DNA from: Pirellula staleyi DSM 6068
Lineage (GTDB): Bacteria; Planctomycetota; Planctomycetia; Pirellulales; Pirellulaceae
NCBI GenBank assembly: GCA_945875845.1
Contig: CAMCMB010000022.1
Location: 1 to 64,000 of the forward strand
Direction: 5' to 3'
Length of the DNA: 64,000 nt
Under the pieces are notes generated by a model. That model was not told where the DNA came from. It ran no database searches and saw nothing but the letters and a program-made list of their open reading frames with translations. A program made the position numbers and the translations under genes. Shown piece after piece: positions 27,521 to 58,088 of the stretch; positions within the stretch are counted from its first letter, which is position 1, and each line of letters opens with the position of its first letter.

Positions 27521-29803
27521 TCAAGTCACGATGGAACGCAACCACTTTGGCATCGAATCCTCTACCTTGTTGAGGACGACTCCTACAACGCATCTATTAG
27601 CAGCTTCCAAGCGTCGAACAACCCGTTGCAACTCGATAGTCTCCGTAACGCCCGATTCAACCACTAAAACGATTAGATGTAAATCTCGCGTGATGGCCAT
27701 CGCGTGATCCAGGCGCCCCGCTGGCGGAAGGTCGACAATGATTAAATCATAATCGTGCTGAAAATCCAGCAAGCGCGACGAGTCTATTCGGTCTCCTTTT
27801 TCAAGGTATCCGCTCACGAAGTTGATAGGCTCTCGCGTTGTCGTCGGCACATAGCCTTCGGGGTTGGAATGAGCGCTTTTCAATTCCGATTCCTTACGAG
27901 ATCCGTCTGAGCCAAAGGCGCGTGAAACAGTTTTGTCTCTCAAGTCTGCGTCGATCAAAGTCGTTCGAAGTCCACAATCTTCACTTGCCGTTAATGCAAG
28001 GGCGGCTGCTATGGTGCTTGCTCCGCAACCGTCCCGAACGCTTAAGACACCCAACGTTCGACCCCGAATACCTGAACTGGCAGCGTGACATCGCGAAAAC
28101 AGGACGTCCGACAGAATCGATTTGAAGACGTCGCGAAGTCGACTGTTACGAGAATCTCGCACAAAACTGGACCAGTTCGAGGTTCCGTGACGGAATGGAA
28201 TACTCATCAAAACGGGAGCTCCCAACGCCGATTCGACGTGCGCCGCCGTTCTCAACCGGCCGGATGTCATTTCTCGAAGAAAGGCCAAGCCAAAACCGGA
28301 AAAAAGTCCGAGCGACACGATTCCGGTTGCGAGCATCTTTTTATTGGGGGTAGTCGCTCGTTCCACAAAGGTTGCGCCCTGAAAAACGTTTACATTGAAA
28401 ATTTGCTTCATTTGGAGCTGCTCCAGCATGCGAGACTGCTCTAATTTCTCACTCAAAGAGAGGAAACTGCTCTTGCGAACTGCGATTTCCCGATCCAGTT
28501 GTTGGATTTGCAGTTCCTGTTCAAGCAGTTTCTTGCTCTGGTCGTCAAGGTCCCGCCGCTGCTCTTCCATTGCGGTGATCGCGGAACGAAGCCCAACGAC
28601 GAGCGTCTCTTGTTTTTGCACCTCTTCGATGAGTCGTAGCCTGACGGGATTGGGCGTTGGACTTGGGTCGATGCGCTGGGTCTTCGATTCTTTGAGAATA
28701 GATTGAGCACCGTCGATCTGCTCGCGGACTTGCATCAACTTTACGTGACTGCCCGTGTATTTCGCGGCAAATTCTTTTTCCTTGAGCACCAACTCATCAA
28801 GCCGCTGTTTTATTCCAACCAAGTTGGCATCGGATGGTTCGATTTCGTTCGCAATGATCTCGTCGACCGCATCGGCAAGCCGTCCATTCAAATCTCGTAT
28901 CTCCGACAAAGCTTGCTTCAGTTGCGATCGAGCACTGTCGAGTTCAGCATCGACATCAGCCAACTGGGCCGTTAGTCGTTGACGGTTATCGTCAATCGAA
29001 CCAATTTTGTTTTCCTGTAAAAAATTGCTTCGATTATCTACAAGACCGTTCAGTTGCTTCTCTGCGCTCTCTACATGAGCCGAGAAAAAATCTTGCGAAC
29101 CCGATGTGGGCGATACCTTAAGGTAAATGTCTATGAAATTTTTAGTGCAACTCTTGACCAAGGCCTGTGCCATCTGAGGCGTCTTGGCTTCTCCACGAAC
29201 CGTGATGACGGTGGATTTCTTGGGTGAATGGATTTGAACCGTCTTTTGGACCTTCATGATGGCCCTTTCGCGATCGCTGATAGTGTCGCGAACACTTAAC
29301 AACCCCATGCTAACGTCAAGCCAAAAACGACCGGTATCCTTTGCAAAGGTTGAATATCGGTGACCGAAAGAACTCGGGGTGGTCGGCGCAGTCGGCAGGG
29401 TGCCGGATAAAATCGCCTCTTCCCCTAGTTCGTCCACGACCAATTCGGAAACCGCACGACTACCTAAAACCTCAAGTACCGAGTTGATTCCTTCTTCCTG
29501 AGTCTTTGGAAGCATTAGCGTTTCGCCGGTGGTCGCAGTGGGATCTAAGCCAACACTCTCCCGTGCTACCAAAATCAACATTTTCGCTTCCGACTCGTAG
29601 GTGCGAGACCAAAAAAGAATCGCCAGCCAGGAAACCAAAATCGAAGCGAGAAGCGATCCAAGAATAAGTCGCTTTTGGATAAACGGGATCTCAAAATAAG
29701 AAGCGAACCCAGCTCGCCCTAGAGTCCCAAGCCCCTTTCCTTGACCAACTAGTGGACCGTTTGCAATTTGATCATCCGGTGCGTTCATGAAGCAATCGCG
29801 CAT
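27521..29803 (-). CDS. Wzz/GumC-like chain-length protein fused to a BY-kinase-like domain with abnormal P-loop
   Basis: About 760 residues; the start is uncertain (ATG at 29803 or 29788). An N-terminal membrane segment (LILGSLLASILVSWLAILFW) is followed by the Wzz periplasmic domain, a long coiled-coil region (about 230-480), and a second membrane segment (MLATGIVSLGLFSGFGLAFL). The cytoplasmic ATPase domain has an intact Walker A' (TTLIDADLRDK) and Walker B (DLIIVDLPP), but the P-loop reads DGCGAST, with alanine in place of the lysine. There is no tyrosine-rich tail. It probably controls polysaccharide chain length without normal kinase activity. No other polysaccharide genes adjoin. Confidence 0.85.
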   Translation of the reverse strand: MRDCFMNAPDDQIANGPLVGQGKGLGTLGRAGFASYFEIPFIQKRLILGSLLASILVSWLAILFWSRTYESEAKMLILVARESVGLDPTATTGETLMLPKTQEEGINSVLEVLGSRAVSELVVDELGEEAILSGTLPTAPTTPSSFGHRYSTFAKDTGRFWLDVSMGLLSVRDTISDRERAIMKVQKTVQIHSPKKSTVITVRGEAKTPQMAQALVKSCTKNFIDIYLKVSPTSGSQDFFSAHVESAEKQLNGLVDNRSNFLQENKIGSIDDNRQRLTAQLADVDAELDSARSQLKQALSEIRDLNGRLADAVDEIIANEIEPSDANLVGIKQRLDELVLKEKEFAAKYTGSHVKLMQVREQIDGAQSILKESKTQRIDPSPTPNPVRLRLIEEVQKQETLVVGLRSAITAMEEQRRDLDDQSKKLLEQELQIQQLDREIAVRKSSFLSLSEKLEQSRMLEQLQMKQIFNVNVFQGATFVERATTPNKKMLATGIVSLGLFSGFGLAFLREMTSGRLRTAAHVESALGAPVLMSIPFRHGTSNWSSFVRDSRNSRLRDVFKSILSDVLFSRCHAASSGIRGRTLGVLSVRDGCGASTIAAALALTASEDCGLRTTLIDADLRDKTVSRAFGSDGSRKESELKSAHSNPEGYVPTTTREPINFVSGYLEKGDRIDSSRLLDFQHDYDLIIVDLPPAGRLDHAMAITRDLHLIVLVVESGVTETIELQRVVRRLEAANRCVVGVVLNKVEDSMPKWLRSIVT

Positions 29804-30902
29804 GCAATTCAATGTTAACGGTCGAAGACAACAATTGTCTTTATGGTGGAGCGGGGCCCTAGAACAAGGACTTATCTATCGTAATTAAAGGGTTTTACGT
29901 AAGCAATCGATACGATTCCCAATTGCCGAACTGGACCGCAAACTTCCATTGAGACAAGTAGGAAGATTCCCCAGCGAAAAGGTGTCTATCTGGCTGAAAC
30001 CCGAGGAAATTCGCGAAAAGACAGGGGACGGTACTTGGTTTGCACTGAATGGCGATGCTCAACGCCCTTGAAAGTGGCTCAACCGATGCACTGTCAGCAT
30101 TGAGACGCTTCCATAATTTCACAATAAGGTTCCATAATTTCACAATAAGGAAAGAATACGAATGGCATCCAAAACAAAAAACCCCTCCGTTTGGCCCCTT
30201 CAGGGCAATGCGCACCTTTTTTCATGACGACCCAGGGCGGCGCTTCGCTCTGCCCTGGGCTAGGTTCTGTAAGCCCGTTGGGCTATCAAACCCATTAGCC
30301 CTGCGGGCTATCGCATACCCGGCCCTGCGGGCTATCGCATACCTGGCCCTGCGGGCTATCGCATACCTGGCCCTGCGGGCTCGGAGATAATTTGGATTGG
30401 CTTTTGCAATTCGCCCCGCATGGGGCAGCAACAGCCTAGCCCAGGGCAGAGCGCAGCGACGGTACGTCGCGAAGCGCCGCCCTGGGTAATGGTGAAACTC
30501 GCTAACGTTGCCCTGAAGGGGCCGAACAAAGGACTCGCGGCAACAATGGATGGTCCGTTTGGCCCCTTCAGGGCAATGCGCACCTTTTTTCATGACGACC
30601 CAGGGCGGCGCTTCGCTCTGCCCCATAGGCATCAACTTAAGGATCGGTATAGGAAAAAAGCGGAAGTTCCTTCAGAATTGGTGTTCGCAAAAACATTTCA
30701 ACTCTGGAAGAAGGAACTTCCGCATGGACATCTTAACACGGGCAGCGAATGCCTTGAAGCTCCAAACAGAGTTTGATCTTCGAAGCGGTGCGCTGCGAAG
30801 CGTGCAACTGGAACAGGGACGGGCTCCTGATGGCGCTTCGGATCGCCAGCAGATCGTGCAAACGGTCGGCTAAGCCCGGATTGTTTTGACGTCATAAGCT
30901 GT
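29804..30902. repeat. 1.1 kb repeat block
   Basis: Contents in order: a 21-bp tandem duplication (30109-30129 and 30130-30150); a 70-bp segment at 30186-30255 repeated exactly at 30554-30623; three 24-bp units (ctatcgcataccnggccctgcggg) at 30308-30379; an inverted partner of the 70-mer centre (cgaagcgccgccctgg, about 30470-30486), so the block can fold as a large cruciform; and a 14-bp inverted repeat (30660-30673 / 30710-30723). No intact gene is visible except the short frame at 30724. The open frames running through the repeats are translations of repeat DNA. Confidence 0.85.
30724..30873 (+). pseudogene. Short frame, possible gene remnant
   Basis: 49 codons starting MDILTRAANALKLQTEFDLR, preceded by an AAGGA ribosome site that is part of the hairpin at 30660-30723. 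It ends with ASDRQQIVQTVG. I do not recognise it with confidence. The position ahead of drmB/drmC-like remnants and the general character (helical, ending in a SDRQ-type segment) would fit the start of a DrmC-like protein, but that is a guess. Confidence 0.25.
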
Positions 30903-31322
30903 ATGAAAATGATTGGAACCGAGGAGATCATCGAACCGAGGCTGCTCCTGAAATTAAAGGAACACCTCAATCTAGATAATCTGCGGTTGTACGCCCCACC
31001 CAGGGATGGTGGCGATATCACCGAAGTCTTGGTGCGATGCGAATGCGGACAAACGCGTTTACTTAGCGAAGCCGTGGAATCGGGCGGCTACCAAAAAGCC
31101 GGAGCGTTAGGCCTATGCGATGGTAGCCAACCCTGGCTTGGCCCCTTCGCAAGAGCCCGGTGCGAATAACCAAGTAAGTTTCTCATTCGGACGGCCAGCA
31201 ATGCGTATTTCCCAAAGAAATTGAGCGTTATCTCATTGCCCCCGCGAAACGAGTCCGTCACGGAAGCAGTTGACACGGCTTGGATGTTCTTGGAAAAACC
31301 ACGGAAACGGCATCCCGGTTGA
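30903..31322 (+). pseudogene. Remnant resembling DISARM drmB (DUF1998)
   Basis: One reading frame with a single in-frame TAA at 31167-31169. Before the stop: VRCECGQTRLLSEAVESGG, then GALGLCDGSQPWLGPFARARC, a zinc-ribbon pattern of the DrmB/DUF1998 type. After the stop, in the same frame, comes KFLIRTASNAYFPKKLSV, the best-conserved block of that family, then SLPPRNESVTEAVDTAW. A full DrmB is around 600 residues; about 140 codons remain, so both ends are missing as well as the internal stop. The family call is from memory of the conserved blocks. The frame after 31280 shifts to another register. Confidence 0.65.
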
Positions 31323-31439
31323 AGCCAGACGAACTCAGGACTCTCATTGCATGCGAACAAGAACAAGGGGACGACCGGCCCGATGGTGATTTCTACGCAA
31401 GAGTTTTGCCGCGAGCCATTTGGGACGCAAGTTGGATGA

Positions 31440-31772
31440 ACTGTGTATCAAGGCAAGGATATCTTTGCGGCGCTCGCAAATCGGATGGAAGCCCTTCCTG
31501 AACTGAACGTTCGGATGTACCTCAACATCGACCGACCACATGGGGACAGCTCGCCGTCGGAACTTTTGTTGGCCAAGTTTCAGAAGCGGTTTCGCGAGAA
31601 CCAGTGGCCGGAGAACATGCGGTTACCAGAAGTGTTTTACGACCCGCGTCCGCTGGCAGACGACGATGCCAGTAAGTCAGCATGTCTCCACGCCAAGGAA
31701 GCCTGGGAGGGTGAGGCTACGCCTCTAAACATGTTTTCCTCGACTTTGCCCAATCCATTCCTTGCTTGGTAG
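31440..31772 (+). pseudogene. Remnant resembling DISARM drmC (phospholipase D-like)
   Basis: In frame: VYQGKDIFAALANRMEALPE, NVRMYLNIDRPHGD, FRENQWPENMRLPEVFYDPR, then SACLHAK, where the first half of an HKD (phospholipase D) motif would lie. Immediately after HAK the sequence changes to a copy of the gggagggtgaggct hairpin element (31704 onward) and the frame runs into it before stopping at 31772. So the second half of the enzyme, including the rest of the HKD motif, is lost. It follows the drmB-like remnant on the same strand, as in DISARM operons. Confidence 0.65.
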
Positions 31773-32106
31773 GGTGAGGCTCCTGCCGAACCATTGCGTC
31801 GTAAGCTCGGCAGGAGCCTCGCCCTCCCATGGGTTTCCAATGCATTCGACATTGCAAAGATGTTTAGAGCGGTGGGGGTAGAGCCCTGACATGGTAGTCT
31901 TCGGTTCAGTGGTTTGTTTACGCTTCTGAAACGCAGCTAGACATTGATTCACGATCAAAAAACCAATCAAAACATCTCTGGCTGCAGGCCTACAGTCAGG
32001 TCGTACGGTTTTGACGCGGATGTCGGATGAAGGTGCTGGAGCAAAGCGTGAAGAATGTCACAACCAGGAGTCTTTGAAAAAAATCTCATCGGCTGAATTG
32101 GAGCGA
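31773..32106. repeat. Spacer with hairpin of the 24314-24376 family
   Basis: The arms 31771-31792 and 31804-31829 make an imperfect copy of the hairpin found before mch. From 32011 to 32106 a plus-strand frame reads KREECHNQESLKKISSAEL and continues as antisense of the DUF1501 gene. I do not recognise it; it may be the tip of another eroded gene. Nothing else is seen. Confidence 0.55.
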
Positions 32107-36437: not shown

Positions 36438-36905
36438 TCACCGCAAGCAGTGACGCACACATCGAAGGCTCTTTTTTCCACCCAGGAAAGCGTGTGGAGC
36501 CTGTGGGATCAAGGTCAGGTTGGTGGCGATGCCAAGCGCCTTGAGATCGCGACGTGGTTCCTTGGCATGGGTGCTTTCATGATCGCCATCACCCGACATG
36601 AAGGCGAGCGCTTGGGCCAGCGGCGTCGTGACGTAGCCGTTGGAGAAAAGAACGCCGCCCGCCGCAAACGCGTCGAGGTGCGGCTTCGGGATTTCCTTCC
36701 CGCCGTAGCAACCGGCTTCACCATAGCCTAAGTCGTCGGCGACGATGAAAAGGATGTTGGGTTTCCTTCTCGGCGCTTCCTCGCCGTGAAGCGCGTCCAG
36801 TGGCGCGAGCAGCAAGGCTGCGAGCAGCAGGGCTGCGACGAGGGGGGCTGCGAGGAGGGGGCGACAGAAAAATTGAATACAGAAAGACAGTGTCGTGGGA
36901 TTCAT
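36438..36905 (-). pseudogene. Chimeric remnant: sulfatase N-terminus joined to esterase C-terminus
   Basis: 155 codons from the ATG at 36905 with a signal peptide (LVAALLLAALLLAPLDALHG). The first sulfatase block is intact (KPNILFIVADDLGYGEAG, then DAFAAGGVLFSNGYVTTP), but the sequence jumps where the C-x-P-S-R active-site motif should come. After about 25 unclear residues it continues with LGIATNLTLIPQAPHAFLG, the catalytic-histidine end of an alpha/beta-hydrolase esterase. Just beyond, a run of six A's marks a frameshift: another frame continues with FDVCVTACGEAVNPAP. The product cannot be a working sulfatase or esterase. Confidence 0.8.
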
Positions 36906-36925
36906 CGGTAGTGCGGTGACGGTGT

Positions 36926-37648
36926 TCACTTCTTGGAAAACTCAGGTTTGATCGCCGGTGCTTCTTCCCTGGGAAGGTGGCGACGAAGAGACTCGATGTC
37001 GGGGCGTTGGGCGGGGTCGGCGGCAAGGTTGGTCCATTCGTTCGGGTCGACGTTGTGATTGTACAGTTCCGGCGTTAGTCGGTCTTCTTCGCGAAGGGCT
37101 GTGATGTCTTGCTCGATCAACTCGTCAGGCTTTTTCGCGATTGCCGTTCGTTCGAACAGCAAGTGCCCGATCTTGTGTCGCAGGGTGCGCACGCTCCAGC
37201 GTTCGACACGGCAAAGTTCGGCGTAGAATTCGCGATTTAGCCCTTTTTCCAATGTTATTAGCTCGACGAAATGGCTCCAGCTCAATTGTCGCGACAGGGT
37301 CGCGACAATCTCCAACTCCGGAAAGACCTCGGCAAACCGCAGCATTTGGAAGAGATTCCGACGACCGAATCCCCTACCGTACTCCTCCGTCAATTGTGCA
37401 GACAGTGTCTGCACAATCTCCTTTCCGTACTCTGCCTGCTCATTTTGAAGCACATCCGAGCGAATACGCTGGCCGATCTGCCAATACATTACGACCAACG
37501 TTGAATTGACAGCACGTGCGGTTTGCTCGCGAGCAGATTCGATCAGGCCTCGAATATCGCCCAGCAACGCCGAAACGTTGAAAACGCTTTGATTCGGCCC
37601 CTTCGATTGCTCAGTCAAATCCGTCGTCTTCGATTTCTTTTTACTCAT
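36926..37648 (-). CDS. Chimeric frame: DUF1016 N-terminal domain joined to a sulfatase C-terminal tail
   Basis: 240 residues. Residues 1 to about 190 match the DUF1016/YhcG N-terminal domain (VVMYWQIGQRIRSDV, GFGRRNLFQMLRFAEVFPE, LSWSHFVELI, REFYAELCRVERWSVRTL). At LREEDRLTPEL, where the PDDEXK-type C-terminal domain should begin, the sequence becomes YNHNVDPNEWTNLAADP, the characteristic end of iduronate-sulfatase-like enzymes. The nuclease domain is absent, so any DNA-processing role is doubtful. The stop lies just before the sulfatase-start remnant. Confidence 0.8.
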   Translation of the reverse strand: MSKKKSKTTDLTEQSKGPNQSVFNVSALLGDIRGLIESAREQTARAVNSTLVVMYWQIGQRIRSDVLQNEQAEYGKEIVQTLSAQLTEEYGRGFGRRNLFQMLRFAEVFPELEIVATLSRQLSWSHFVELITLEKGLNREFYAELCRVERWSVRTLRHKIGHLLFERTAIAKKPDELIEQDITALREEDRLTPELYNHNVDPNEWTNLAADPAQRPDIESLRRHLPREEAPAIKPEFSKK

Positions 37649-54491: not shown

Positions 54492-55420
54492 GCGCATGGT
54501 GGACGACGCTTCCAAATGGCTGCGGCGATGCCGCCTAGGATGTTTTGCATCACACCGCTGAAAACACCCGCCGCGGCGGCGAGCGGCATGCTGGCGAAGT
54601 GCAGGCGTGCGAGCGAGGCCGCCATGCCGCCATTTTGCATGCCCACTTCGATACTGACTGTGCGGGCGACGGACTCCGGATAGCGCAGCACTTTTGGGAT
54701 GAGATAGCCAATGCCAAAGCCAATGACGTGCAACACCAGCGCCGCGAGAGCCAACACTCCGAAGTTCTTCGCGATGGCCTCGGCGCTCGCTGCGACGATG
54801 CCGCCGGTGACGCACACAAACGCAACCACCGCGATGGTCGGTCCCGCTGCCCCGATGCGATCCGCCGTGCGCGGCAGTTTCCACCGGATGAGCACGCCGA
54901 GCATCACGGGCGCGATGGTGAGTTGCAGTGCGGAGAGGCAGAGACCCCACACATCCACCGGCACATAGGCGCCCGCGAGGGCCTTGGTCCACATCGGCGT
55001 GAAAAAGAAGGCGAGAAGCGTGGAGAAGAGCGTGAGCACGACCGAAAGCGCCACGTTCGCGCGGGCGAGGTAGGAAATCATGTTCGACGCCATGCCGCCG
55101 GGGCAGCTCGCCACGAGGATGATTCCGACGGCGAGTCCGGGCTCCAAATGCAACATCTTCGCTATGGCCCAACCCGCGAGCGGCATGATCGTGTATTGCG
55201 CGATGAGGCCCAGCGCGACACTCCCAGGCATGCGGCCGACCGCTTTGAAGTCATCCACGCTCAGCGTGAGCCCCATGCCGAGCATCGAGGCCGCGAGCGA
55301 CCAAAACACCCAGTCCGAATTGAACCATAGCATCACCGGCGGCTTGAAAAACGCGATCACGGCCAGCGTGACGAGCCACACGGGATACAGATTGTTGAAC
55401 CAGTCGAAGAAGCGTTTCAT
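54488..55420 (-). CDS. Bile acid:sodium symporter (BASS)-type transporter
   Basis: 310 residues from the ATG at 55420, with about nine to ten hydrophobic segments. Family features are WVFWSLAASMLGMGLTLSVDDF near residue 35, AVGIILVASCPGGMASNMIS (the conserved CPGG-x-x-SN block) and a C-terminal SIEVGMQNGGMAASLARLHF. BASS proteins move organic acids such as bile acids, pyruvate or pantoate with sodium across the inner membrane. With the HpcH/HpaI aldolase and kinase-like protein it probably takes up an acid derived from the sugars released by the sialidase-like enzymes. Confidence 0.92.
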   Translation of the reverse strand: MKRFFDWFNNLYPVWLVTLAVIAFFKPPVMLWFNSDWVFWSLAASMLGMGLTLSVDDFKAVGRMPGSVALGLIAQYTIMPLAGWAIAKMLHLEPGLAVGIILVASCPGGMASNMISYLARANVALSVVLTLFSTLLAFFFTPMWTKALAGAYVPVDVWGLCLSALQLTIAPVMLGVLIRWKLPRTADRIGAAGPTIAVVAFVCVTGGIVAASAEAIAKNFGVLALAALVLHVIGFGIGYLIPKVLRYPESVARTVSIEVGMQNGGMAASLARLHFASMPLAAAAGVFSGVMQNILGGIAAAIWKRRPPCA

Positions 55421-55428
55421 GAGCGTGC

Positions 55429-57714
55429 TCAGGGAAGAGGAGGCAGTTTCGCCGAGTAATGCACGGCACGGCGGCGGTTGTCGTCGAACGCGAAGTGGAG
55501 CCACTGCTTGTCGGCGCTCACGAATCCGTCGGGGTAATTCATGCGGCCCTTCGGCCCGTCGCAGCTCTCGGCCTGCAGCACGCGCTGGTAGGGCCACGTC
55601 TTCATGCCGTCGAAGCTGATCCAGAGCGCCATCGGGCTACGATGCTTGCTGTTGGGATTGTGCAAAATGGCGACGGTGTCGCCGCCGAGATTATAAAGCG
55701 TGGTCTTGCTGCCGGGATTCGGGATGGGCGTGGTGCTGGCAAACTCCGGCCAGGTCTTGCCGCCGTCGTTTGACTCCGCTTTGAACAGAAGCCCGCCGAG
55801 CCCGTCGGCGCGGATGACCATCGTGATACGACCATCGGGATGCTCGAAGAGATCGTTCTCGGCCCAGCCGAAGTAGCGGTCGTTCGGCGTGAGGCGGATG
55901 TTGCCGTGCTCGGTCCATGTCTTGCCACCGTCGCTGCTGATGAGCACACCGTTGCGTGGATTGGTGAAAGCGCGGTCGAGCGGCGTCTTGTGCTGCTCGT
56001 CATCGGGGCCGATGTAGTGCTGGAAGGGAATCATGATGCGGCCGTCTTTGCAGACGATGTGCTTGCGAATAAAGGTGCGCTCCTTGAGCCGGCCCGGCAC
56101 TTCCTGGGGCTTGCTCCACGTCTTGAAGGAGTCGTCGCTGGTGAGGAACCACGATCGCCAGTCATTCGCCCAGTGCTTCGAGTGCGTGGAAAAAAAAAGC
56201 GTGCTGCGCTGGCCAAGGATCATGAGCTCGGTCGGACCCTGGCCGATGGTTTTGCCCTCGCGGGGGAAGCCGACATCGAATCGCTCCAGCGGTGTCCATG
56301 TTTTGCCTTGGTCGGTGCTGCGCGTGATGCCTGTGTAGTTGAGCGGGCTCGGTTCGGTGTCGCCGCCGGCGAGCATGAAAAGAATCCACGAACCGTCGGG
56401 CAGCTCGCGCAGTGTGGTGTCGCAGACCATCTTGTTCGGTGTGACGCCATCGTAGGGGATGCTCCTGAAGTCCTGCTTCGCGTCCTCGATGCCTTGCGCG
56501 GTCCACTTCGGATCGGGTGTGATCGGCATGGGCAGATGGGGCGCGAGCGCCTTGTTCGCGAGCATCCGCAGCTTGGCGTCCTTGGAAATGATTTTGCCTG
56601 CGAGGATATCTTCCTCGCGGAACTTCGCCATCAGGATTTCCGCATCCGTGTGGCGGTTTCGATCATAGAGAATGTGGATGAGGCCGTCGGGCGACTCGAA
56701 ACCATCGGGATACGAAACATCGGCGCGTTCATCGAGCAGCAGACCCTTGCTCCACGATTTGCCTTCGTCGTCCGAAAGAAAAGCCGTCATGCTCGAGCGG
56801 CGCGGCAGCCGCACATTCACCGGGCCGTTCTTCACGAGCAAAATGCGGCCTGATTTCAGTCGGCGCAGGAAGAAGCGGGCGCTCACATTCTGCACCGTCG
56901 CCGCCTGCTTCGGTTTGCTCCAGGTCTTGCCGCCATCGCTCGAAAAGCTCTCGTGCGGCTGGCCCGAAGTGCGGGCCAGCATCCAGAGGCGGCCATCGTT
57001 CAGTTCGACCGTCATGTGCTCGTCGAACTGCCACATTGGGAACTGCACGCTGCCGCGTTCCGTCCACGACGCGCCTTCGTCGGTCGAGGCAAACACGCGA
57101 GCCGTCTTCCGGTGCCAGTCGGACACTGGCAACAGCCATGCGCCATCCTTGAGCACGGTCGGCTTGTTCAGCGTACAGCCCTCCTCAAACATAACGGGCG
57201 TGCTCCACGCAGGATCCGCCGCGTCGGGATCATCGCATCGCATGAACCAGTTCGTGATGCGCTTCTGCGGATCGCCGAGCTGCTGGTCAAAGAAGAGCCA
57301 CAAGCGTCCCTTCGGATCGGTCCACAGGTTCCCCACCAGCGCGCCGCTGAGCTGCTGCGAAGCGTCAGAGCGTGCGCCGACCGCCAGCCGCGGCTTCGAC
57401 CAAGTCGCGCCATCGTTGTCGCTCGTCGCGAGCAGGAAATACCCATCTGGCTTGTCGCCCGTGCCTGTCCAGCAACCCCAGATGCGCCCCTTTGGCGTGC
57501 GATCCATTCCGATGATCATTGCGCCGGGACGCGCATCGTCCTGAAACTTCGCGCCGGGATTCGTGATGACCGACGGCGCCATTCCATCCTCTTTCCGAAG
57601 CTGCCGCGTCGTTTCGCCTGCTTCACACATGCTCGGAACCGCCAGGGTGAGCACGATTGTCGCTACAAGTGTCCACAAACGCCTGGATCGCCGGGGGGAT
57701 TGTCTCATCTTCAT
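55429..57714 (-). CDS. Large exported protein with two tandem sialidase-like propellers
   Basis: 761 residues from the ATG at 57714, which has AGGAG six bases upstream. The signal peptide (RRSRRLWTLVATIVLTLAVP) is nearly that of the gene at 49523. Propeller 1 spans about 40-390 (TSDNDGATWSKPRL, ASTDEGASWTERG, SSDGGKTWSKPKQ, LSDDEGKSWSKGLL). Propeller 2 spans about 420-760 (RSTDQGKTWTPLER, SSDGGKTWTEHGN, SNDGGKTWPEFAS). Each looks complete, so this is a fusion of two enzymes in one chain. The gene is eight bases upstream of the transporter gene, suggesting one operon: degrade, import, metabolise. Confidence 0.9.
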   Translation of the reverse strand: MKMRQSPRRSRRLWTLVATIVLTLAVPSMCEAGETTRQLRKEDGMAPSVITNPGAKFQDDARPGAMIIGMDRTPKGRIWGCWTGTGDKPDGYFLLATSDNDGATWSKPRLAVGARSDASQQLSGALVGNLWTDPKGRLWLFFDQQLGDPQKRITNWFMRCDDPDAADPAWSTPVMFEEGCTLNKPTVLKDGAWLLPVSDWHRKTARVFASTDEGASWTERGSVQFPMWQFDEHMTVELNDGRLWMLARTSGQPHESFSSDGGKTWSKPKQAATVQNVSARFFLRRLKSGRILLVKNGPVNVRLPRRSSMTAFLSDDEGKSWSKGLLLDERADVSYPDGFESPDGLIHILYDRNRHTDAEILMAKFREEDILAGKIISKDAKLRMLANKALAPHLPMPITPDPKWTAQGIEDAKQDFRSIPYDGVTPNKMVCDTTLRELPDGSWILFMLAGGDTEPSPLNYTGITRSTDQGKTWTPLERFDVGFPREGKTIGQGPTELMILGQRSTLFFSTHSKHWANDWRSWFLTSDDSFKTWSKPQEVPGRLKERTFIRKHIVCKDGRIMIPFQHYIGPDDEQHKTPLDRAFTNPRNGVLISSDGGKTWTEHGNIRLTPNDRYFGWAENDLFEHPDGRITMVIRADGLGGLLFKAESNDGGKTWPEFASTTPIPNPGSKTTLYNLGGDTVAILHNPNSKHRSPMALWISFDGMKTWPYQRVLQAESCDGPKGRMNYPDGFVSADKQWLHFAFDDNRRRAVHYSAKLPPLP

Positions 57715-58088
57715 GCTTTCTCCTTGTTGGTGTTGGTAGTTTCCTAAGTTCATTGGCCGAACCAGAATCTGTAGAGGTCCGCATTCTGCATGGAGAACCG
57801 GATCTTGACAGGCCTGTCGGACTCGGGCCAGACCACGATGTAGCCGGCGGGCAGCCAGTGGAGCGCGCGGTAGTTGGCTGAATATTGCAGAAAACGAATT
57901 AAGCGCAATGACTCGCCAATGCCTACATTCTCGTCGCTTCGGTACAATCGACGCAAGTCGAGCGGAAACAAAGGCATGGGAGAATTCGACCAATACTCGG
58001 CAACGTGGTGTCGACTGGCAATTCAAGGTCGCAGATGCAAGGATAAAACTCCGATCCCTCTACCCCAAAATTAAAGTTGGACAGAGGA
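57715..58088 (-). pseudogene. Spacer with chimeric tail fragment of sialidase and propeller genes
   Basis: About 57750-57875 on the minus strand reads LHWLPAGYIVVWPESDRP, close to the last blade of the sialidase at 49628-50878, joined directly to VKIRFSMQNADLYRFWFGQ, close to the very end of the propeller protein at 47772. The DNA match to each parent is visible over 40-50 bases. So this is a recombinant scrap of two genes that are neighbours in the intact block. The rest of the gap has no gene. Confidence 0.8.

Follow-up and report, generated by a model that had tools for sequence, protein, structure and literature searches.

The window (the whole 64,000-nucleotide stretch of DNA analysed here) holds two short neighbouring pieces that had been taken, in a sequence-only reading, for the drmB- and drmC-like fossil of a DISARM-like anti-phage locus. 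Are these pieces what is left of such an operon, how was it taken apart, and how long ago? DISARM systems share a drmA–drmB–drmC core, to which class 1 adds drmD and drmMI and class 2 drmE and drmMII. Six-frame translation of positions 30600–31980 located both pieces on the plus strand, side by side at 30903–31769, and all motifs named in the sequence-only reading were in frame. An 88-codon frame opens with the ATG at 30903, takes in a cysteine-rich block and closes with a TAA at 31167–31169, the in-frame stop noted before; beyond it, the same frame stays readable to 31319 and carries IRTASNAYFP. The drmC frame (31440–31769) contains RPHGD, LPEVFYDPR and LHAK, all within 31440–31697, and the drmC piece ends directly past LHAK, where a repeat adjoins.

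Profile searches gave the partial matches that had been predicted for both proteins. For DrmC, PADLOC matched the last frame with E = 2.9e-28 over model positions 128–208 of 267. The other three remnant frames had no PADLOC match, its DrmB models missing the drmB pieces. With NCBIfam, the first two frames matched DrmB_fam (E 2.6e-6 and 8.5e-7) and the last frame DISARM DrmC (E 7.1e-6), in all cases below the curated cut-off, as expected because only pieces of the proteins are present. Read across the stop, the DrmB part scored 67.8 bits against a DrmB_fam cut-off of 240, over model positions 183–281 of 604, which marks it as homologous but partial. A third drmB piece, in frame 31274–31498, had no match in PADLOC or NCBIfam and was placed only by DNA comparison and tblastn. 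Pfam gave solely a chance-level DUF1266 match (E 0.18) on the remnant frames.

With the drmC piece as query, three loci were found in genome contigs, among them L013 of the MAG Pirellula sp. Tobar2m-G36. This same-genus locus has unbroken drmA, drmB and drmC genes (Table 1) and is also present in the same-genus genome G016. Ahead of drmABC, L013 has a DUF1016/YhcG gene, itself with an in-frame stop at codon 86 (679–681). Between this gene and drmA lies a DUF6932 protein (L013 1651–2052) that matches PADLOC PDC-M63A. No methylase was seen near L013 drmABC, either by tblastn with three methylases of the genus or with Pfam and PADLOC on the neighbours. The parent of the remnant may thus have been a drmABC cluster that lacked a methylase and was accompanied by a DUF1016 gene. 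Chance resemblance is ruled out by the profile matches together with the DNA identity of 90–97% to an unbroken locus. Mis-called general PLD or zinc-ribbon proteins are likewise ruled out, since the operon matched by the DNA contains a full DrmA as well.

Table 1. Pieces of the drmABC remnant, associated features in the window, and the unbroken genes of L013 (window positions unless L013 is named).
Feature	Position	Strand	Evidence
Block 1, just upstream of drmA	30873–30920	+	91.7% to L013 2371–2418; drmA start at L013 2424
Block 2, drmB residues ~47–79	30920–31016	+	95.9% to L013 5943–6039; tblastn
Block 3, drmB residues ~181–275	31009–31294	+	96.9% to L013 6341–6626; NCBIfam DrmB_fam
Block 4, drmB residues ~315–366, shifted frame	31297–31441	+	90.3% to L013 6744–6888; tblastn
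Block 5, drmC residues ~122–207	31441–31697	+	96.1% to L013 7999–8255; PADLOC DrmC
Part of high-copy repeat, abuts 3' end of drmC piece	31701–31780	+	at least 40 further genome matches
DUF1016/YhcG nuclease gene, N-terminal half	36929–37648	-	94% DNA identity to L013 388–1004
drmA, unbroken	L013 2424–5810		1,128 aa; PADLOC DrmA, 3e-293
drmB, unbroken	L013 5803–7638		611 aa; PADLOC DrmB, 1.1e-77
drmC, unbroken	L013 7635–8435		266 aa; PADLOC DrmC, 3.3e-89

Aligned with L013 by blastn, the remnant falls into five collinear blocks, which retain 825 of 5,885 bp. The blocks follow the drmA–drmB–drmC order of L013, so that the DISARM order read from the sequence holds, while two genes side by side are replaced by a single operon with internal deletions. 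From the diagonal offsets, there are four such deletions of 3,525, 309, 115 and 1,111 bp, which precede blocks 2, 3, 4 and 5, respectively. Block 3 carries the cysteine block, IRTASNAYFP and the TAA, at which position the unbroken relative has a sense codon. All of drmA is lost, as are some 70% of drmB, with the MrfA-type zinc-binding (MZB) domain found at residues 476–575 of L013 DrmB, and about two thirds of drmC, i.e., its first part and everything beyond HxK. The three drmB pieces together make up 180 of 611 residues by tblastn; for drmC, tblastn reaches residue 207, and the start at residue 122 follows from the coordinates. Blocks 1 and 4, the four deletions and the half DUF1016 gene had not been recognized before, block 1 being a piece of only 48 bases.

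Read by eye from the printed junctions, junctions 1 and 4 overlap by about 1 base each and junction 2 shows 5–8 bp of microhomology; junction 3 has no overlap and a few non-matching bases. These overlaps fit short-homology (illegitimate) deletions, by which the operon would have been cut down. Deletions 1 and 2 put drmB in frame with the ATG at 30903, which lies upstream of drmA in L013; deletions 3 and 4 alter the frame. Block 5 ends just past HxK, which belongs to the PLD active-site motif, and next to part of a high-copy repeat, in agreement with the earlier proposal that a repeat element cut drmC after its HKD start. Among the 40 candidates scored out of 156, this repeat, or part of it, matched the genome at 40 more places, so that its matches number at least that many.

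Collinearity with an unbroken operon, together with four deletions, one stop and a 3' truncation, characterizes the remnant as a pseudogene. We are confident that it is a dead DISARM-type drmA–drmB–drmC operon, of a kind that another genome of the genus still has unbroken, and it is most likely without function. In a working parent, the DrmAB helicase complex would load on incoming phage DNA and block the phage, assisted by the PLD nuclease DrmC; an action of DrmAB on phage DNA and an accessory role of DrmC are described in PMC9142583. The remnant resembles DISARM in that its DrmB and DrmC pieces follow the order of the operon, and L013 has full DrmA, DrmB and DrmC. Unlike DISARM, both drmB and drmC are partial in the remnant; blastn and tblastn against L013 revealed no drmA coding sequence in it, and three methylases from DISARM loci of the genus had no tblastn match in the window. 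Because DrmA and a methylase were sought in this way and not found, we class the remnant as a DISARM-type drmABC operon turned pseudogene and not as a DISARM member. Even L013, with no methyltransferase seen beside drmABC, would fail the five-gene type definitions of PADLOC as given in PMC9252829.

The kind of object is known. Defence pseudogenes noted with PADLOC may be remnants that could inform on past arsenals (PMC9252829), and the locus described here is, like these, the inactivated remnant of a defence system; it differs in that its pieces are small and each deletion can be placed against an unbroken relative. Incomplete DISARM gene sets were reported from cyanobacterial MAGs (PMC9716671). 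A preprint on YprA-family helicases treats DISARM as a branch in which helicase and DUF1998 are consistently found in separate genes, and DUF1016 as a term is absent from its main text (PMC12458937). In the portions of the literature searched, we found no description of a DISARM locus reduced in such fashion. Its interest lies in how clearly the deletions can be resolved and in the breakage of two loci in the same genome, as described below.

For the age of the break, we compared 248 codons with L013 in four blocks, after excluding block 1, the initial bases of block 3 and those flanking junctions 3 and 4. There were 27 synonymous and 5 non-synonymous differences, the stop among the latter, corresponding to pN/pS = 0.055 by simple counting. 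The 85 drmC codons compared contained 10 synonymous differences and no non-synonymous one. With L014 as outgroup, two of the five non-synonymous changes are assigned to the fossil branch, one to that of L013 and the remaining two to neither. A fossil branch that was neutral over its whole length would give 30–68 non-synonymous changes for its 9–20 synonymous ones, and the Poisson probability of five or fewer is then at most 1.6e-8. The same crude ratio between L013 and L014 over these codons is 0.22, for a far more diverged pair. Since there are too few non-synonymous changes for a neutral branch, the break apparently is recent relative to the divergence from the L013/G016 copy; an old fossil is ruled out on the same grounds. 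Purifying selection would have held on the locus until shortly before the break. If the locus moved horizontally, its divergence from the copy in G016 need not equal the species split.

The same genome contains another DISARM locus on contig C30, where, as in L013, a DUF1016/PDC-S02 gene is followed by drmA, drmB and drmC. It belongs to a divergent lineage, with DrmB 58% and DrmC 41% identical to L013. Its drmB and drmC are full length, with pN/pS of 0.07 for DrmB and 0.29 for DrmC against the L050 locus of genome G010. We nevertheless dropped the idea of an intact backup, because drmA is broken and of DrmMI only a C-terminal piece was seen. This drmA is split over two frames and lacks the counterpart of L013 residues 418–547; compared with the unbroken drmA of L050, it shows a frame change and a 389-bp gap holding the GGGKT Walker A segment. 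Upstream, PADLOC found the DrmMI C-terminal piece (model 808–1005 of 1015) in a frame that also matches a DrmD-labelled model and several type IIG models, and tblastn of the genus methylases against the 19-kb C30 piece gave C-terminal stretches only. With the Walker A segment lost, C30, the only other DISARM locus found in the genome, looks broken too. No DrmA profile match occurs outside C30 in the 99.95% complete assembly. As assembled, and in this one assembly, neither DISARM locus looks able to work. Two separate MmeI/DrmMI-like C-terminal or recognition-domain pieces lie upstream of drmABC in the C30 locus (L016 6164–7246 and 8952–9287), and likewise two MmeI/DrmMI-like pieces in L014 (975–1175 and 1796–2278); they might be either methylase remnants or separate recognition-domain genes.

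About 6 kb from the drmBC remnant, on the opposite strand, the window contains the N-terminal half of a DUF1016 gene (PADLOC PDC-S02, 9.2e-75; Pfam DUF1016_N, 1.2e-47). A 46-aa tail is fused to it in frame and matches the C-termini of ~470–580-aa frames in 7 of 20 genomes, its own genome counted; we take these proteins to be sulfatases. Over 194 codons, the half gene differs from L013 by 13 synonymous and 16 non-synonymous changes. From this ratio of 0.37 and the in-frame stop in L013's own copy, the DUF1016 gene seems to have been under relaxed constraint for a longer time in at least one of the two lines. A sulfatase N-terminus (36441–36941, minus strand; Pfam Sulfatase model 1–50 of 301, E 2.3e-7), continued by other sequence, adjoins the half DUF1016 gene, and the two together look like a second decay zone. 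The lost defence island proposed earlier is shown only in part, the losses here being a single locus and a neighbouring half gene.

The DNA of the remnant was found in 3 of 60 relatives searched: its own genome (G000), G016 and, as a 125-base match of 70%, G033. The DrmB profile matched in 7 of 27 genus genomes, again with its own counted, giving eight matches above the cut-off and one below (E up to 0.001), which is the remnant. The left flank (27521–30200) has short matches only, in 2 of the 26 other genus genomes. On the right flank, the DUF1501 and PSCyt genes have orthologues in G014, G016, G021 and others. Past the DUF1501 gene, no further similarity was found in the compared stretches of G014, G016 and G021 (9–14 kb, one orientation), so that the site is a variable boundary. 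When the G016 locus is compared with contig C61 of G000, synteny on the comparable side does not start before L013 11693, and nothing of drmABC lies within the 20 kb of C61 that were compared. Other DNA common to G000 and G016 has ~71–97% identity, with the remnant blocks toward the upper end.

No genome was found with unbroken DISARM at the site of the remnant, so that decay in place and arrival in broken form are not separable. That the pieces came already broken by horizontal transfer, for example on what was left of an island, without ever having worked in this lineage, seems to us rather unlikely, although several observations would suit it: the left flank has two short matches only among the 26 genus genomes besides its own, the half DUF1016 gene is found 6 kb off in reversed orientation, and the relative's locus sits beside DNA whose counterpart here (C61) is without DISARM. 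The identity of the blocks to G016 would also suit a transfer after the species split, but some shared non-defence DNA is equally close (97% over 3.4 kb, 93% over 4.6 kb and 92% in the DUF1501 gene), and identity hence does not decide between descent and transfer. The 3.4 kb at 97% to G016 are at 54567–57926, in surroundings poorly common to both genomes.

For a dead operon to be an artefact, the true genome would have to contain unbroken drmABC here, of which the assembler lost pieces. The assembly indeed comprises 149 contigs with 3.55% estimated contamination, and the junctions are known from it alone. Yet an assembler error does not usually take the form of four separate deletions plus a stop codon and a 3' truncation at a repeat, DrmA profiles match only C30, and the blocks, being 3–10% off G016, do not stem from cross-contaminating G016 reads; we therefore consider an artefact highly improbable. 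Hardly any weight remains for the idea that the leftover frames, 88 aa from the ATG at 30903 and 109 aa at 31443–31772, are expressed and reused as small proteins. Deletions 1 and 2 do leave an open frame from the ATG through the cysteine block, and the drmC codons compared are free of amino-acid changes; a recent break, however, accounts equally well for the absent changes, the DrmC frame is without the rest of the PLD active site, and the remnant is, for the DrmB profile, the sole match below cut-off among the 27 genus genomes.

Defence systems are known to turn over fast, and their loss is mostly visible as absence only. Here, with an unbroken same-genus copy, a shredded copy and a second locus without its helicase motif, the loss of a dead DISARM-type operon can be read base by base. 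The remaining codons of the shredded copy still look selected. Taken together, this suggests that decay proceeds here by successive deletions that outpace point mutation, leaving remnants too small for ordinary annotation. The remnant is a concrete place to ask about the cost of DISARM to its host. We may speculate, and tentatively at that, that DISARM-type systems are actively selected against in this planctomycete lineage, since deletion has broken both of the divergent drmABC loci of one genome, in at least one case recently when measured against the divergence from an unbroken copy, and the in-frame stop in the relative's DUF1016 gene points in the same direction. If so, defence turnover would leave behind a series of decay stages that can be read.

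A 49-aa frame (30724–30870, plus strand) immediately precedes the remnant and looks, we assume, like a transposase piece; it has no relative in the 26 other genus genomes, and 30601–30870 gave no Pfam match. An inverted repeat was seen by eye around 30659–30725, and short repeats at 30182–30630 recur near drmABC in L013. Copies of a ~105-base repeat at 31871–31974 are, among the 12 candidates scored per genome, 86–92% identical in G014 and G016 and ~78–90% in the own genome. Reverse-transcriptase-like genes occur upstream of drmA in two genus genomes, directly in L051 (8510–10075, minus strand) and one frame away, with a Pfam score below cut-off, in L050 (51–1361).
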